Shown piece by piece: positions 6,419 to 38,317 of a stretch of DNA of 38,317 bases (within the stretch, counting starts at the first letter, position 1; the number at the start of each line of letters is the position of its first letter). Below the pieces are notes generated by a model, which was given only the letters and a program-made list of their open reading frames with translations, had not been told where the DNA came from and made no database searches. The position numbers and the translations under genes were made by a program. The DNA comes from an uncultured Halomicronema sp. (GTDB lineage Bacteria > Cyanobacteriota > Cyanobacteriia > Phormidesmidales > Phormidesmidaceae): NCBI GenBank assembly GCA_937899725.1, contig CALCCA010000196.1, positions 1 to 38,317 of the forward strand, written 5' to 3'.

Positions 6419-6598
6419 ACGACAGTGTTCTATGATTTCCTGAATTTCATAGATTTTACTCAATCAAAGCTATACAAAACTTCAAGCAGTCATTTATACT
6501 TATTCAAGATTGTGGGGTCAGTCAGGCAGTTGATTTTCGTCACTGTGGTGTCGCTAACTGCTGAAAGGCTTGCTAATCAAGTGATAAGGATGTTCGCA
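6419..6598 (+). other. AT-rich leader or small-RNA candidate upstream of the SulP gene
   Basis: About 180 bp of AT-rich sequence with no credible reading frame. It contains a -10-like TATACA at 6471-6476 and runs directly into a strong terminator at 6599-6631. Transcription starting here would make a short terminated RNA of roughly 130-160 nt or, on read-through, the 5' leader of the transporter. This is an inference from layout only. Confidence 0.35.
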
Positions 6599-31341: not shown

Positions 31342-31584
31342 ATGACGTTACAGGACGTACATAATCAAGCATTACAGTTGTCTATTGGCGAGCGTTGGCG
31401 GTTAGTTCAGTCTTTGTTGAGTTCGATTCAACAAGAAACGCTAGTGTTTGGTCTTCCACTTGCTGACGCAAATTCTTTGCCTGGTCTTGATCCCTGGACT
31501 CAAAGCCTAGTTGGGGTCATTAAGTTAGGAGAACAAAACTCCACGGAGTCCTATGTGGACTATCTGGAGGAGAAGTATCGTTGA
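31342..31584 (+). CDS. Probable antitoxin of a PIN-domain toxin
   Basis: An 80-residue protein starting MTLQDVHNQALQLSIGERWRLVQSLLSSIQ, the short helical element typical of small antitoxins that precede PIN toxins in cyanobacteria. The C-terminal part (YVDYLEEKYR) would wrap the toxin. The gene overlaps the following PIN gene by 4 bp (TTGA), the classic arrangement for co-translated pairs. No AbrB or RHH fold is obvious, so how it binds DNA is unclear. Confidence 0.8.
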   Translation: MTLQDVHNQALQLSIGERWRLVQSLLSSIQQETLVFGLPLADANSLPGLDPWTQSLVGVIKLGEQNSTESYVDYLEEKYR

Positions 31585-31997
31585 GGCACGTATTATTTGA
31601 CAGTGATGTTTTGCTTGATGTCCTGGCTCAACGGCAACCATTTGTAGTGGCTTCTGCACAGTCGTTAAATACAGCAGTCAAACCGCAAGTGCAAGGTTAT
31701 GTTTCGGGGCATGCAGTGACGAACATTTTTTACATCCTGCGTCGTCAAGTGGGTGGTAAAAAAGCTCGTGAGCTTCTGTCAAGACTATTGCAACATCTTG
31801 AAGTGGCTAGTGTGACAGATGCAGTCATTAAAGCTGCATTAAAAAGCTCCATTACGGATTTTGAAGATGCTGTCACCAGCGAAGCGGCAAACACCGCAGA
31901 AGTAGAAGTTATCGTGACTCGCAATAAATCCGATTTTGCGGCTTCTGTCATCCCTGCATTATTGCCAGACGAATTTTTGGCAATGCCATTAGAGTGA
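31581..31997 (+). CDS. PIN-domain toxin (VapC-like RNase)
   Basis: A 138-residue PIN-domain ribonuclease, probably cutting tRNA or rRNA when released from its antitoxin. The start is TTG, overlapping the antitoxin stop. Acidic metal-binding residues are in place: Asp7 in LFDSDVLLD, Asp96 in ITDFEDAV and Asp118 in VTRNKSDF. The subgroup is PIN_3-like, with the middle region GHAVTNIFYILRRQVGGKKA. All catalytic residues are intact, so it should be active. Confidence 0.9.
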   Translation: MRHVLFDSDVLLDVLAQRQPFVVASAQSLNTAVKPQVQGYVSGHAVTNIFYILRRQVGGKKARELLSRLLQHLEVASVTDAVIKAALKSSITDFEDAVTSEAANTAEVEVIVTRNKSDFAASVIPALLPDEFLAMPLE

Positions 31998-32163: not shown

Positions 32164-34740
32164 TTACGGTACGACAACAAAGTTGACTAGCTTACCCGGT
32201 ACCACGATGACCTTTTTCACCGTTTTCCCTTCGATATAGCGCTGGGCTACCTCCGACTCACGGGCGTACTGCTCCAACGCGGCTTTGTCAGAGCTGGCAG
32301 GGACGCTAATCGTGCCGCGCGTTTTACCCATAATTTGAATTACCAGAGTGATTTCGTCCGCGACAAGGGCGGATTCATCCAGTTCGGGCCAGGGCTGCTG
32401 GTGAATGGAACCCGTCTGTCCCAACTGCTGCCAGAGTTCTTCAGCCATGTGGGGAGCAAAGGGCGCGAGCAGCTTCACCAATGTGTGAATGCCCTCGACA
32501 TAAATCAGGGAATCGGTGCATTTCGCATCCGTTAGCGCGTTGCTGAGCTTCATCAACTCCGATACGGCAGTGTTGAACTGGTAGTCGCCTTCAATATCCT
32601 CACTGATTTCTTTGATAGCAATGTGAATGGCGCGACGCAGGTCTTTTTCCGCCTTAGACAAGGTCGCGGATGCGGCCGCACCGCTGGAAGATGCCGCAGC
32701 AAACTCGGTGACTAAGCGCCACACCCGATTGAGGAAGCGATACTGGCCTTCGACATCGGCGTCATCCCATTCCAAATCCTTTTCAGGTGGCGCTTTGAAC
32801 AAGATGAACATCCGCGCCGTATCCGCGCCATATTTGCCCAGTACATCTTGGGGAGCGACACCGTTGTATTTGGACTTCGACATTTTTTCGTAGAACCCTT
32901 CTAGCGAGTCACCGGTCGCGGGATCAACGGGATGGTCGATGTCGGTAATCTGGTCAATCGGGATGTATTTGCCGGTTTTCGGATTTTTGTAGGTGATGTT
33001 TTGCACCATGCCTTGGGTGAGCAGGCGGCTGAAGGGTTCGTCCACATCAATGAGGCCGCGATCGCGCAACACCTTGGTGAAGAACCGCGAGTAGAGCAAG
33101 TGCAAAATCGCATGCTCAATGCCGCCCACGTACTGATCCACCGGCAACCAATCGTTGGCTTTGGCGGAATCAAAAATCGCCCCTTGATTGTTAGCATCGA
33201 CGTATCGCAAGAAGTACCACGACGAGTCGATGAAGGTATCCATCGTGTCGGTTTCCCGCTTAGCCGGTTCGCCGCAAGTGGGGCAGGGCACGTTGACCCA
33301 GCTCTCCAACTGGGAGAGGGGAGAGGCACCGCGACCGCTGAATTCCACATCTTGAGGCAATTCCACGGGCAATTGCTCATCCGGTACGGGGACGATACCG
33401 CAGCTCGGGCAATGCACGACAGGAATCGGCACACCCCAGTAGCGCTGACGCGAAATGAGCCAGTCCCGCAGCCGGAAATTGTCTTGGCCTTCACCTTTGC
33501 CTTGCTGTTCTAGCCAGGCGATCGCCTTCTCCACACTTTGCCCCGCGCCTTTACCCGCCGGTAGACCGTGCAAGGGACCCGAGTGCACCATGACGCCGTC
33601 GCCGGGCCAGGCTGCTGCCATCGTCGCGCCATCCAACGTTTCACCTTCCGGCTGCACCACGACTTTGATATCCAAACCAAACTTGCGGGCAAAGGCAAAG
33701 TCGCGGCCATCGTGGGCGGGTACAGCCATAATCGCCCCGGTGCCGTAGCCCATGAGCACGTAGTCAGCAATCCAGATGGGAATCTGCTCACCATTGACCG
33801 GATTGATGGCATAGCTGCCCGTCCAAACGCCAGTTTTTTCTTTGCCTTCGTCGGTGCGATCGATGTCGCTTTTCGCCGCTGCTTCAGTTTGGTAGGCGGC
33901 GATCGCGGCCTTTTGTTCTGCCGTCGTCAATTTCTCCACCAGCGGATGCTCGGGCGACAACACCATAAAGGTCGCGCCCCACAAGGTATCGGGCCGCGTG
34001 GTGAACACCTCCAAGTCATCGCCCTGCTCCGTTTTGAAGGTGACCTTGGCGCCGGTGGACTTGCCGATCCAGTTTTCCTGCATGAGGCGCACCCGCTCCG
34101 GCCAGCCGGGAAGCTTATCTAAGTCCTGCAAGAGTTCGTCAGCATAGGCCGTGATTTTCAAAAACCACTGTTTTAACAACTTGCGTTCAACCTTCGCGCC
34201 CGATCGCCAAGACCGGCCCTCGCTATCAACCTGTTCATTCGCCAGCACCGTTTGGTCGATGGGGTCCCAGTTCACCGCCGCTTCTTTTTGATACGCCAAG
34301 CCCGCTTGCAAAAACTGAATGAAGCTCCACTGGGTCCATTTGTAATAGTCGGGCGAACAGGTGGCGACTTCGCGATCCCAGTCGTAGGAGAGGCCCAACT
34401 GCTTGAGCTGCGCCTTCATTTGCTCAATGTTTTGGTAAGTCCACTTGGCGGGATGGACACCGCGATCAATCGCCGCGTTCTCAGCGGGCAAGCCAAAGGC
34501 ATCCCACCCCATCGGATGCAACACACGATAGCCCTGCATCCGCCGCACCCGCGCAATCACATCGGTGATCGTATAGTTGCGCACGTGCCCCATGTGCAGG
34601 TTGCCAGAAGGATACGGAAACATCGACAGCGCATAAAACTTGGGCTTGCTAGGGTCTTCGTCGGTCTTATCCAGCCCTTGCTCAGCCCAAACCTGCTGCC
34701 ACTTTTCCTCGATCGCTGCGGGACTGTACTTATCCGCCAC
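32164..34740 (-). CDS. leuS: Leucyl-tRNA synthetase, full length
   Basis: Charges leucine onto tRNA-Leu in the cytoplasm. The 858-residue protein starts at a GTG behind an AAGGAG ribosome binding site. The HIGH signature is HMGH (49-52) and KMSKS is at 619-623. The CP1 editing domain spans about 225-426, with TTRPDTLWG (247-255) and the editing Asp of AHDGRDF (Asp344). Zinc-knuckle cysteines are 444, 447, 486 and 489. Leucine-pocket residues Phe41, Tyr43, Asp80, Phe503, Ser506, Tyr509, Tyr537, His543 and His547 are all present. The anticodon-binding and C-terminal domains complete it. It is downstream of a truncated paralog on the same strand, with a 59-bp gap. Confidence 0.98.
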
Positions 34741-34784
34741 GTCCGAACTCCTTCCTTGCTAGTCGCTTATCTCAACAATTCTAA
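34741..34784 (-). promoter_or_regulatory. Duplicated leader and ribosome binding site of leuS
   Basis: These 44 bases directly upstream of the leuS GTG are identical at 36 of 44 positions to the 44 bases upstream of the paralog's GTG (36612-36655), without gaps. AAGGAG sits 7 bp before the start codon. Confidence 0.85.
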
Positions 34785-34799
34785 GGGCTGGTCTTCGCG

Positions 34800-36611
34800 T
34801 CAGGGTGACGAGTTTTGCGAATCGGGCGGCAGCGAGGGGGGCCAAGCCTGCTGATGCACCGAGTCGGCATGCCCGAGTCGGTGCCAGAGTTCTTCAGCGA
34901 TGTGGGGTGCGAACGGGGCCAGCAGGGTGACCAGGAGGTGAATACTCTCGACATCGGTAGGGGAACTCAGACTGGTTGCTGCTTGCAGGGCCTGAGTGAG
35001 GGTCATCAGTGCTGCCCCAACCATATTGAGCGAATAGGGCTCCTCGCAGTTTTGGTGAATGGTGGCGATTGCCGTTTGCCTGACGCGTCGCAGGTCTGCC
35101 TCTGAGTAGTCATTTCCCGGCCCGCCGGCCCCACCGTCGGCAGCCGTCGCGTCGCTAATGAAATTCATCACCAGCTGCCAGACTTGCTGTAAAAATTCAT
35201 GCTGTCTGGCCAGATCATCCTCACACCATTGCAGCGGCTGTTCGGGTGGGGCGTTGAATAGCAGAAAAAGCCGCAGCGCATCAGCGCCATAGTCATCAAC
35301 GACTGTTTGAGGCGACACAGTGTTGGCTTTTGCTGGCGACATTGTCTCATCAGTGACGGTTAGGGGCAGGCCACTCTGCGGATCAGTCGGGTTTTGAGGA
35401 TCAGCAATATCGGCGGCTGAGAGATACTGCCTCGTTTCGGGATGGCGGTAAGTCACGTTTTGCACCGGGCCGACGGTCAGCAGATAGTCGAAGGGTTCAT
35501 CGAAAGTCAGCAAGCCGCGATCGCGCAGTGCCTTGGTCAAAAATCGGGCATAGCCAAGGTGCAGAGCCGTCTGATCGAGCGTCGTGACGTAAAGATCGAC
35601 GGGTAGCCATTTGTCGACCTGGGCAGGTGCAAAAACAGCGGTTTCATTACTGGCATCTGCAAACCGCAGAAAGTACCAAGACGAATCCAAAAAGGAATCC
35701 AGCGTGGCCGTTTCTCGCTCAGCAGAAAGCCCGCAGGTCGGACAGGGGACCTGACGCCAAGTCTCGAACTTAGTGAGCGGCGCAAGTTCTTGCCGGCCAA
35801 ACTTGACGGTCTCCGGCAGCACTACCGGCAGCTGTGCCTCTGGGACGGGCACGAGCCCACAGTTAGCACAATGCACTACAGGAATCGGCACACCCCAAAA
35901 ACGCTGCCGCGAGATCAGCCAGTTGGGCAGGTAGCGACTCCAGTTTTGCTGTATCCGGCACACTGGTTCGGGCCAACTGGGGCGTTGAGCCAAATCTTGC
36001 CGCAGCTCGTCGGCGTAGTCAGTCATCCTTAAAAACCACTGGCGCAGCAGCTGACGCTCGACCTTCGCGCCCGATCGCCGCGATCTCCCCTCACAATCAA
36101 CCTGTTCGTTCGCGAGCCCGATCTGCTCAGTGGGGTCCCAGTTCACCGTTGATGGTTGGGGGTAGGCCAGCTCCATTTCGAAAAGTTGAATAAAAATCCA
36201 CTGCGTCCATCGGTAGTAGTCCGGCGAGCACGTGGTTAATTCTCGCTGCCAGTCGTAGGAAAGCCCCAACTGCTCAAGCTGCGCTCGCATCTGCACGACG
36301 TTCTGGTTAATCCACTCGGCTGGATGACAACGGTGAGTGATCGCGGCTCGCTCGGCAGGCAAGCCAAAGGCATCCCAGCCCATCGGGTGTAGTACCCGAT
36401 AGCCCTGCCGGCGCCGCACGCGAGCGATCGCGTCGGTGATGACAGAGTTCCGCACATGACCGACGTGCAGGTGGCCAGAAAGATAGGGCAACATCGACAG
36501 GGCATAAAACTTGGGCTGGTTGGCATCCTCAGCGGTTGTATCCAGTCCTTGCTCAGCCCAGATCTGCTGCCACTTTGCCGCGATCTCTGCGGGCTTGTAT
36601 CGCTCCGCCAC
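34800..36611 (-). CDS. LeuRS paralog lacking editing domain, KMSKS and C-terminal domain
   Basis: A 603-residue protein from the GTG at 36611, chosen because an AGGAG and a leader homologous to that of leuS precede it; the open frame to 36788 is translated repeat DNA. It aligns residue for residue with the neighbouring LeuS over 1-224 (156 identical), keeping HVGH (49-52) and [10 protein letters not shown]. LeuS residues 225-426, the CP1 editing domain, are replaced by six residues (225-230). WLISRQRFWG and zinc cysteines 248, 251, 290 and 293 remain. KMSKS has become TMSPA (423-427); His543 of LeuS is Gln347; the motif GGIEH is TTLDQ; Phe41 is Leu. The C-terminal 69 residues of LeuS are replaced by a 14-residue tail. 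It should fold as a class I synthetase core but cannot edit and has lost both catalytic lysines of the KMSKS loop. The function is unknown; a decaying copy is possible but the frame is intact. Confidence 0.9.
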   Translation of the reverse strand: MAERYKPAEIAAKWQQIWAEQGLDTTAEDANQPKFYALSMLPYLSGHLHVGHVRNSVITDAIARVRRRQGYRVLHPMGWDAFGLPAERAAITHRCHPAEWINQNVVQMRAQLEQLGLSYDWQRELTTCSPDYYRWTQWIFIQLFEMELAYPQPSTVNWDPTEQIGLANEQVDCEGRSRRSGAKVERQLLRQWFLRMTDYADELRQDLAQRPSWPEPVCRIQQNWSRYLPNWLISRQRFWGVPIPVVHCANCGLVPVPEAQLPVVLPETVKFGRQELAPLTKFETWRQVPCPTCGLSAERETATLDSFLDSSWYFLRFADASNETAVFAPAQVDKWLPVDLYVTTLDQTALHLGYARFLTKALRDRGLLTFDEPFDYLLTVGPVQNVTYRHPETRQYLSAADIADPQNPTDPQSGLPLTVTDETMSPAKANTVSPQTVVDDYGADALRLFLLFNAPPEQPLQWCEDDLARQHEFLQQVWQLVMNFISDATAADGGAGGPGNDYSEADLRRVRQTAIATIHQNCEEPYSLNMVGAALMTLTQALQAATSLSSPTDVESIHLLVTLLAPFAPHIAEELWHRLGHADSVHQQAWPPSLPPDSQNSSP

Positions 36612-36655
36612 GTTCGAACTCCTACTTGGTAATTCGCTTATCTCAAGAATTCTAA
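36612..36655 (-). promoter_or_regulatory. Leader of the LeuRS paralog, homologous to the leuS leader
   Basis: A 44-bp segment matching 34741-34784 at 36 of 44 positions, with AGGAG before the GTG. The similarity ends just upstream, where a purine-rich repeat begins. Confidence 0.8.
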
Positions 36656-36662
36656 TCGGCAG

Positions 36663-36790
36663 GCAGAAGGCGGAGTGGAGGGTGGAGAGTAAAGAGTAGA
36701 GGGATAGAAGACAGAAGGCGGAATTAGGAACTCCGTCGGGTTCTGCCCTTCGCGCAGCAGACTTAAAACTCGACTCCCTACCCTCCACTC
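36663..36790. repeat. Purine-rich repeat with 11-bp inverted arms
   Basis: CAGAAGGCGGA occurs at 36664-36674 and again at 36712-36722. GAGTGGAGGGT (36673-36683) is complementary to 36780-36790. The rest is G/A-rich on the left and C/T-rich on the right, so the whole can fold back. It occupies the region upstream of the LeuRS paralog. The remaining bases to 37016 show no gene. Confidence 0.55.
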
Positions 36791-37016
36791 TCTACGCACC
36801 ACGCTCCCTTCCTTCCTCACTGTTGCGTTTTTCTAACAAGCTCCAAAGTTTGTTAAGCCAGCCTACCCATAAATAATTTTCTATCGTTTACTGGGGGAAG
36901 AAGCCAGGGATAGCGCGTGATGCTATCGCTAGGTTGCCATTAACTCCGCCGCCGTCGAGAAGCTGGCTAATCTGCTCGGCGGCTTTGTTTTAAGCAGTCC
37001 CTAATAGGTAAGCGAG

Positions 37017-37898
37017 ATGATTTCTTCAGACTTGATGCATCTCGAAGCACATCCCGACCGGCTAGATCGCAACCAGGTGCAGTTGGCCCTGGCGCTAGCT
37101 GACGAAGCGATGCTGCAATCTTTGCTGGTCGATTGTTCACCGGCGATCGCCCTGCCGCATCAAATTGGGCAGTTGCGCGTGGCGATTGGACCGCCACCTG
37201 ATAGTGAGCAACTCGACCACATCGACGCCGTGATTGAGTATGAGCACCTATGGTGCCTGCCGTCGGAGGGCGCTCCCTCAGAGACTGAGTTTTCGAGCAA
37301 GGAGTATCAGTCACTAACGCGCTGCCAGTCAGAGTTAAAAACTTTGGGTTGGCGGGTCAGTTTGTCGCAGGCGATCGCGTTGCTGCAGCACGGCGGCTTT
37401 CAAGAAGATCAGATTCAGCGGATTTTGCAACTGCCCTGGGAAGGTTGGCACCGCTCTTGGTGGGACACGCTGGAAGCACGGGGCACGCTGGGGTTGCCGT
37501 TTCAGCGATGGTTCCGTACTCGCTGTTATGGCGACGGCACCTACACCCTGCAATATCACGATCACTATTCTCAAGATGCGCCGCCTTGTTTTCGCGGCAT
37601 TTGGCAGCAGGTACCGCTGATGATTACCCACCGGGGCGGGCAGTTTGGCGAAACTCTCACCGGCTTGCGTAAAGCTCGCCACACGCTGGAGACTGATCGC
37701 TGCCTGTTGCTGGCGGATAACCTGACCGATTTAGAGGCTGAGGCTTACATGCGTCAGGGCATTAGCCTTTATTCCCCGCAGCAATCTTCACTCACTGAGC
37801 AATCGCTTTGCCAACGGTGCGATCGCACTCAATGCCCCATGAGCGATCGGCGCGATGCTCCTGTCGTCAATTGCAAAGCTTACGTTTCTCATCCCTGA
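37017..37898 (+). CDS. Conserved-looking hypothetical protein with four-cysteine tail
   Basis: A 293-residue protein with no domain I can name. Residues 1-100 look alpha/beta and acidic (EHLWCLPSEGAPSETEF). A central block is rich in Trp and His (LPWEGWHRSWWDTLEARGTL, then RCYGDGTYTLQYHDHYSQD). The C-terminus carries Cys265, Cys268, Cys273 and Cys286 (CQRCDRTQCPM, then VNCKAY), a C-x2-C-x4-C-x12-C pattern that could hold zinc or an Fe-S cluster. It has no signal peptide or membrane helix. It is divergent from the LeuRS paralog across about 400 bp. Composition and codon choice support a real gene. Confidence 0.8.
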   Translation: MISSDLMHLEAHPDRLDRNQVQLALALADEAMLQSLLVDCSPAIALPHQIGQLRVAIGPPPDSEQLDHIDAVIEYEHLWCLPSEGAPSETEFSSKEYQSLTRCQSELKTLGWRVSLSQAIALLQHGGFQEDQIQRILQLPWEGWHRSWWDTLEARGTLGLPFQRWFRTRCYGDGTYTLQYHDHYSQDAPPCFRGIWQQVPLMITHRGGQFGETLTGLRKARHTLETDRCLLLADNLTDLEAEAYMRQGISLYSPQQSSLTEQSLCQRCDRTQCPMSDRRDAPVVNCKAYVSHP

Positions 37899-37941: not shown

Positions 37942-38317
37942 ATGACCCAAGATGACTTGCAGCAATTAATTGATCAAGCGTTTGAAGAGGGTTGGATAGA
38001 ATTAAATCTATCAGAGCAAAACCTATCAGAACTCCCCTCGGAAATCAGCAAGCTGAATCAGCTTGAAGTCCTGATTTTGGGCTATGCTGACGACTATTTC
38101 TCAGGCATTGGTAACCAAATAAAAAAGCTACCGCTAGAAATTAGTCGCCTTAATTACCTGAAGGAGCTATATCTTATTGGCAACCAGCTAAGTGTCATGC
38201 CGCCAGAAATAATCCAACTGACCCAGCTACAGCGGCTTGAACTTAGTGCAAACAAACTCAATGTTTTGCCACTAGAAATTGGCCAACTCACCCAGCTAGA
38301 AGAACTCGACATCAGCA
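37942..38317 (+). CDS. Leucine-rich-repeat protein, partial (cut by window end)
   Basis: Only the first 125 residues are in the window. The start MTQDDLQQLIDQAFEEGWIELNLS is the usual opening of cyanobacterial LRR and Roco-like proteins, and is followed by at least four repeats of the L..LP.EI..L..L..L.L type, such as LSELPSEISKLNQLEVLIL and LNVLPLEIGQLTQLEELDI. Many such proteins continue into a Ras-like ROC GTPase and COR domain, which cannot be checked here. The gene starts 43 bp after the preceding hypothetical gene, and AAGGGTG precedes the ATG. Confidence 0.88.
   Translation, partial: MTQDDLQQLIDQAFEEGWIELNLSEQNLSELPSEISKLNQLEVLILGYADDYFSGIGNQIKKLPLEISRLNYLKELYLIGNQLSVMPPEIIQLTQLQRLELSANKLNVLPLEIGQLTQLEELDIS

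Follow-up and report, generated by a model that had tools for sequence, protein, structure and literature searches.

A truncated leucyl-tRNA synthetase paralog with an altered ATP site beside leuS in a Halomicronema genome

The leuS locus and its tandem paralog

The window analysed here is a whole stretch of 38,317 nt from an uncultured Halomicronema sp. Its minus strand carries an intact ORF resembling leucyl-tRNA synthetase (LeuRS), which begins with GTG at 36611 and ends with the stop codon at 34800-34802; the open frame also permits a GTG start upstream, at 36788. We call this ORF the paralog. Its stop lies 59 nt from the start of a full-length leuS on the same strand, and the features of the region are collected in Table 1.

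Table 1. Features of the leuS region in the window
Feature	Position	Strand	Remarks
LeuRS paralog ORF	34800..36611	-	603 aa, GTG, without CP1 and C-terminal domain, TMSPA for KMSKS
Catalytic domain, first half (residues 1-223)	35943..36611	-	HVGH and Asp80 retained
Junction at missing CP1 insertion (about residues 224-229)	35925..35942	-	196-column gap
Catalytic domain, second half (residues 229-425)	35337..35927	-	two CxxC pairs retained; includes TMS of TMSPA; GGIEHA loop replaced by TTLDQT, with Q566V and M568P
Anticodon-binding helical bundle (residues 429-592)	34836..35327	-	Pfam Anticodon_1 at residues 512-592
Paralog leader	36612..36655	-	homologous to leuS leader, AGGAG (Shine-Dalgarno-like)
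Paralog-leuS gap, 59 nt	34741..34799	-	contains leuS's own leader block 34741-34787
Full-length leuS	32164..34740	-	858 aa, editing domain present
Divergent gene	37017..37898	+	293 aa, no Pfam match; adjoins leuS in six relatives

A leader block of about 45 nt is common to the paralog and its neighbouring leuS (36 of 46 nt identical), and is recognisable before leuS in congeners. The paralog leader is closest to that of its own leuS, the leader of G003 agreeing at 33 positions, in an ungapped count that penalises relatives with a 1-nt indel. This likeness may reflect constraint or conversion. Upstream of the leader, the stretch 36821-36857 matches intergenic DNA of four relatives and may belong to the divergent gene. 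A promoter scan of 34500-37300 finds no sigma-70 site on the minus strand, and there is no tRNA within the window. Two further features of the plus strand lie outside the leuS region. At 31342-31997 an 80-aa protein overlaps a PIN_3-domain protein in what looks like a toxin-antitoxin pair, and at 37942-38316 an ORF that by eye has the look of a leucine-rich repeat runs off the end of the contig.

Domain architecture and the ATP site

The paralog aligns with the LeuS of its own genome at 69.5% identity over 223 aligned residues in the N part and at 51.5% over 357 in the C part, the two being separated by a clean gap of 196 columns at the position of CP1. The C-terminal domain is missing after '..HQQAWP', and the ORF stops 12 residues past W590-P591. 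In the paralog Pfam detects the class I core together with Anticodon_1; the editing domain PF13603, which scores 227-230 bits in LeuS, is absent among its matches. A search of the own genome for the editing domain returns, besides leuS, one much weaker match that still passes the cut-off (38 bits); it lies in a frame of 1131 aa on a different contig. The HIGH motif is retained as HVGH (H49, H52), and the place of KMSKS is taken by TMSPA. The first-pass annotation had described an intact 603-residue LeuRS-like ORF directly upstream of leuS on the same strand, about 70% identical to LeuS in its N part, devoid of CP1 and of the C-terminal domain and with a destroyed KMSKS loop, and this anatomy is confirmed. 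The paralog nevertheless scores 665.4 bits against the NCBIfam model leuS_bact (TIGR00396), above the cut-off of 548.4, so that annotation would probably name it a second leucine--tRNA ligase.

An AlphaFold2 model of the paralog, built from an alignment of 34 sequences, has a pLDDT of 88.3 and a pTM of 0.89. Of 365 PDB matches found by Foldseek all 50 listed are LeuRS, and the structure of M. mobile LeuRS with Leu-AMS (3ziu_A) superimposes with TM-scores of 0.81/0.79 over 616 columns. A LeuRS fold is to be expected in the model because the input alignment was made of LeuRS, and a prediction of this kind is silent on ligand binding by the paralog.

We compared the paralog with 98 LeuS sequences, comprising 26 from cyanobacteria (own included), that of E. 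coli and 71 others; two of 73 loci had no usable frame and were left out. The paralog retains 117 of 141 near-invariant LeuRS positions (58/64 in the N part and 59/77 in the C part), together with the four cysteines of two CxxC pairs, which we take to bind zinc. The changed positions, in E. coli numbering, are F41L, P44L, Y56S, G147E, I195M, M219I, R418P, D419N, Y427F, G463E, S465A, G529T, G530T, E532D, H533Q, A534T, L539G, Q566V, M568P, K622P, S623A, R668E, T724M and N734Q. These losses are concentrated on the ATP site. With the losses already in view, we compiled an ATP set consisting of the contacts named by PMC9424281 plus its priming and KMSKS loops. The paralog has lost 8 of the 10 near-invariant positions in this set, compared with 16 of 131 elsewhere (Fisher p = 8e-6). 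As a yardstick, the most deviant LeuS rows miss 11 and 10 positions, of which zero and two, respectively, belong to the ATP set; by the same measure the paralog misses 23, including eight from that set. Not every change carries the same weight. K619T alone is not telling, being found also in 4 of the 26 cyanobacterial LeuS, and the leucine of F41L is the residue that E. coli itself has. Judged from the alignment, the telling changes are K622P, S623A, Q566V, M568P and those in the GGxEHA loop; K622 is present in all 98 LeuS.

The part of PMC9424281 that deals with ligand contacts in N. gonorrhoeae LeuRS names the following contacts: Q580 with the ribose 2'-OH, N55 with the 3'-OH, M582 stacking on the base, the backbone of V583 and M635 with the base and G544 with the ribose; on the leucine side, H547 contacts the carboxylate, and leucine is also contacted by D80, Y43 and the backbone of F41. 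By motif and numbering we equate these with E. coli Q566, N55, M568, V569, M620, G530, H533, D80, Y43 and position 41. In the structural account of PMC5059758, K622 sits at the phosphate of an adenylate analogue bound to the enzyme, and E532 has a role in catalysis. The ATP contacts that the paralog retains are N55, V569, M620 and S621. The near-invariant positions of the leucine pocket are kept at M40, Y43, D80, S496, Y499, Y527 and H537, among which M40, S496, Y499, Y527 and H537 are presumably pocket residues. The leucine side is altered at two places, the carboxylate contact H533 being replaced by Q and F41 by L, and leucine binding by the paralog is therefore not assured. By this comparison most of the ATP side appears altered and the leucine side largely retained, and the sequence suggests that the paralog forms no adenylate.

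The LeuRS of M. mobile also lacks CP1, its catalytic site being otherwise intact, and it is that organism's working LeuRS, not a paralog. The paralog resembles it in size and fold (PDB 3ziu, 637 aa); unlike the paralog it has been crystallised with Leu-AMS in the active site, and in the paralog CP1 is missing yet 8 of 10 near-invariant ATP-site positions are altered as well. The comparison bears on whether the paralog could still be an active enzyme, either a minimal LeuRS with altered ATP geometry, such as an editing-less LeuRS of low activity that serves under stress, or one with a new substrate, such as an adenylate-forming enzyme with another acceptor. We consider this quite unlikely. The retention of HIGH, D80, Y43, most of the leucine pocket, N55, V569 and M620, the ligand-bound crystal of the similar-sized M. 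mobile enzyme and a leuS_bact score above the cut-off (665 vs 548 bits) all speak for it, but K622P, S623A, G529T, G530T, E532D, H533Q, Q566V and M568P strike the site where it faces phosphate, ribose and base, and the C-terminal domain, which according to the domain description in PMC5059758 contacts the variable loop of tRNA-Leu, is absent. Since the ATP site is altered beyond KMSKS, aminoacylation of non-tRNA targets and tRNA-dependent biosynthesis, both suggested in the first-pass annotation, become less likely too.

Constraint, distribution and origin

Selection was analysed with our own branch codon model (GY94-type, F3x4, fixed topologies), in which three placements of the paralog and three segments make nine fits. 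The paralog-branch omega is 0.18-0.28 for residues 1-223, 0.17-0.18 for residues 229-425 and 0.07-0.11 for residues 429-592, and omega = 1 is rejected in every fit (2dlnL 14.0-37.7). An earlier version of the model with fewer taxa agrees, giving 0.19-0.23 in the N part and 0.03-0.14 in the C part, where the paralog omega is no different from that of LeuS; the C-part values are rough because dS there is near saturation. Omega exceeds that of LeuS by a factor of 3-6 in both catalytic halves, and constraint there has therefore been relaxed or changed, while the anticodon-binding part is at about the LeuS level. In neutral simulations of 584 codons without indels, a divergence of 0.68 per site, taken from the N-part dS of the earlier codon model, produces a mean of 19.4 stops and a minimum of 10 in 300 runs, the paralog having none. 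At 0.1 per site the minimum is one stop in 300 runs, and at 0.05 per site 4% of runs are stop-free. The long open frame had been taken as a sign of selection, with a Ka/Ks well below 1 on orthologs proposed as the check. On the paralog branch purifying selection is seen: there are no stops where neutrality at 0.68 per site would give about 19, and omega stays at 0.07-0.28 across the nine fits. Omega is an average over the branch, and the selection may date from a stage as an enzyme with decay since.

How widely does the paralog occur? The genomes searched represent one per species. The full-length query finds LeuRS-type matches in all 95 genomes searched with it; among the matches listed, only that in the own genome spans the whole protein, the others covering one part. 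At strict E-value limits, set where parts of ordinary LeuS fail and below which a much-diverged ortholog could also fall, the own genome is the only one with a match among 388 genomes of the class (560-aa query, 1e-135) and among 63 of the family (1e-130). Of the latter, 45 reach a completeness of 90% or more with contamination of 5% or less, and the search of the order covers no genomes beyond these 63. With a 151-aa query that bridges the CP1 junction, too, the own genome alone gives a match, both in the order (1/63) and in the phylum (1/386). Among the best 80 of 589 candidates from named genomes, matches to nearly the whole query span well over the paralog length, as they do with CP1 present, and two loci (L036 and L109) match part of the query only. 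The congener G002 yields three matches (best 9.8e-10) and is uninformative, since leuS is probably missing from its assembly. As far as searched, the paralog is a singleton.

Ten related loci were fetched and eight compared with the window. In six relatives (G001, G003, G004, G005, G012 and G015) leuS adjoins the homolog of the divergent gene, with no second leuS-like copy at this site; in G003 the two are separated by about 2.4 kb without similarity to the paralog. The loci of G013, on a short contig, and G027 show no match to the divergent-gene flank. The first-pass annotation had proposed looking for the same short form beside leuS in other genomes, and such recurrence is not seen, with one of 63 family genomes, one of 388 class genomes and six empty sites. 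A draft genome of 216 contigs and a paralog found in one genome only might raise the suspicion of an assembly artefact or contaminant. That is scarcely credible, however, as the ORF lies inside one contig, bordered by leuS and the divergent gene just as the site is in relatives, and has a leader homologous to the leuS leader of the genus.

The searches also revealed unusual LeuRS frames elsewhere. G042:C754:2812-3855 holds a second LeuRS-like frame of 430 aa that covers paralog residues 250-592 at 47%, the leuS of that genome being on C412; it may be a fragment, a contaminant or a paralog. In Nodosilinea sp. P-1105 (L036:7988-11072) the LeuS frame runs to 1028 aa, some 166 additional residues following LeuS residue 680, and long LeuS frames occur also in G051 (1028 aa) and G031 (1046 aa). 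In G005, whose 8.3-Mb assembly has 2 contigs, leuS is broken into two frames (L115, around 6540-6590) with a G-rich run in the overlap, and the split is likely a sequencing error.

The distribution bears most directly on the possibility that the paralog is decaying. It would have served for long as a LeuRS or otherwise, lost its job recently and now be drifting, with a frame still intact because the decay is young. We regard this as a realistic possibility, though not the reading we favour. It is in keeping with a singleton across the family, class and phylum genomes searched, with six empty sites that show the lineage to manage without the paralog, with the raised omega of the catalytic halves, and with changed active-site residues and deleted domains. 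Against it, 603 codons run without stop or frameshift, where drift of 0.1 per site always gave at least one stop, a point qualified by the stop-free runs at 0.05; the losses concentrate on the ATP site instead of being evenly spread; and the 117 near-invariant residues and both CxxC pairs have been kept. The first-pass annotation had reasoned that a recent decaying duplicate would lack orthologs and show stops or an omega near 1. Orthologs are indeed lacking, but neither stops nor such an omega are found.

The age of the paralog can be approached through its synonymous sites, at which it is 57% (N) and 46% (C) identical to its own LeuS. For comparison, the own LeuS is 72% (N) and 69% (C) identical to that of G005, and 57% (N) and 42% (C) to that of G003. 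On this measure the synonymous sites of the paralog have diverged to the level of genus or family. Placing it beside its own LeuS lowers lnL by 26 units for the N part and by 22 for the C part relative to the best placement, and this penalty, together with the synonymous divergence, leads us to reject a recent copy of the own leuS. The 46-nt leader, most like that of the own leuS, argues in the other direction. The best attachment edge is G003 for the N part, with edges at the base of the genus within 5.5 units, and G015 for the C part; with the two parts joining the tree at separate points, age and source can be assigned only provisionally. In the trees the paralog has a very long branch and a poorly supported position, which is next to G015, in company with the G018 clade, or between G011 and G015; long-branch effects may contribute. 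The simplest history is a tandem duplication of which the upstream copy became the paralog, but the tree does not fit a duplication late in time. Either the paralog predates these splits and has since disappeared from several lines, or it arrived with flanking DNA from an unsampled relative; both may be considered. We also looked for carriage on mobile DNA. None of 8 pattern matches in IMG/VR is a relative, and the 121 plasmid records that match all do so at <60% identity, the annotated ones among 15 listed being leuS.

Possible roles and known counterparts

Judged by its sequence the paralog would belong with the aaRS pseudoenzymes under selection, its catalytic residues being lost and its fold constrained. 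We hold with about even confidence that it is a catalytically dead LeuRS that is retained by selection and perhaps binds leucine or tRNA-Leu. An intact frame, a conserved scaffold and the losses in the ATP site make this a better account than drift. An old tandem copy of leuS would have lost the CP1 editing insertion and the C-terminal domain, and the protein would still fold, with a Rossmann core and an anticodon-binding bundle. It has probably lost the ability to hold ATP productively, with replacements at the residue facing the ribose 2'-OH, at the one stacking on the base, in the priming loop and at the second lysine of KMSKS, and neither leucyl-AMP nor Leu-tRNA would then be made at a useful rate. 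Loss of the ATP site would at the same time have removed the harm of a charging enzyme that cannot edit. Kept by purifying selection, such a protein might bind leucine through its largely preserved pocket, tRNA-Leu weakly through the remaining core, or both, although we have low confidence in this step. Located beside leuS with a shared leader, it might then act as a regulator of, or decoy for, the supply of leucine or tRNA-Leu.

A more specific form of this idea is that a dead, editing-less LeuRS has become a sensor of leucine or uncharged tRNA-Leu that is encoded upstream of leuS and regulates leuS or leucine metabolism, having arisen in a single lineage of cyanobacteria and then spread or survived patchily. 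We think this unlikely; it would in principle be a bacterial counterpart of non-charging synthetase regulators such as HisZ. The HisRS-like domain of GCN2 is another regulator of that kind.

The own genome also contains a long tRNA array, found with ARAGORN at G000:C41:50575-53437 (L156:3651-6439, minus). Of its 24 tRNAs, three of 76-78 nt have leucine anticodons and are without the long class II variable arm, which seemed odd; the four other tRNA-Leu found in the genome have 81-84 nt, and four of the 58 Rfam tRNA matches, all outside the array, were left untyped. A similar array of 16 tRNAs (ARAGORN) is present in the congener G005 (G005:C1, L165:3040-6883, minus), including a short-arm tRNA-Leu(TAG), and that genome has no paralog. 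Rfam tRNA matches number 58 in G000, 62 in G005, 42 in G001, 40 in G003 and 43 in G004. Long arrays are known, as in the Anabaena trn operon described in PMC10272220. Could the paralog serve the short-arm leucine-anticodon tRNAs? Three tRNAs of the array do lack the variable arm normally contacted by the C-terminal domain, and the paralog lacks that domain. The association is weakened by G005, where the short-arm tRNA-Leu occurs without the paralog, and with an altered active site besides we find this role very improbable.

Duplication is frequent among aaRS, and the ThrRS duplicates of cyanobacteria are among those treated in PMC4787780. Two of the closest parallels to the paralog are archaeal. 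Sulfolobaceae and haloarchaea have non-charging or weak LeuRS paralogs whose roles are given as unknown in the relevant passages of PMC9437257 and PMC3436685. LeuRS-I of Sulfolobaceae does not aminoacylate, but is reported to bind tRNA-Leu and to make leucyl-adenylate (Weitzel 2020, as summarised in PMC9437257). In that summary it is, like our paralog, an extra LeuRS retained in the genome with a disrupted CP1 and a divergent C-terminus; unlike it, the paralog has lost CP1 wholly, is altered in its ATP site and occurs as a singleton, arranged in tandem with leuS. Haloarchaeal LeuRS2 is similarly a duplicated LeuRS, of bacterial type and with strongly reduced activity (Fang 2014, as summarised in PMC9437257; PMC3436685). 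In contrast to the paralog, the passages on LeuRS2 in these sources report that affinity for tRNA-Leu is kept and that it occurs in several haloarchaeal genomes, and they mention no deletion of CP1. A second bacterial LeuRS is AgnB2, the self-immunity enzyme of Agrobacterium K84, but as characterised in the sections of PMC5059758 devoted to it this is active, has the editing and C-terminal domains, and carries KQSKS with both lysines. HisZ likewise reuses a synthetase fold as a non-charging regulator; it differs in being, by the outlines in PMC9437257 and PMC9734150, a HisRS paralog with a known partner, HisG.

The first-pass annotation knew of no described system with this arrangement, and within the open-access literature, subscription papers being mostly outside its scope, we found no bacterial LeuRS paralog without CP1. 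Paralogs of aaRS are already known; that literature showed none from a bacterium in which the editing domain has gone entirely, along with the ATP site, and which is yet constrained. If it is functional, the paralog would offer a small, testable protein with which to learn what a synthetase core does once it is unable to charge tRNA.
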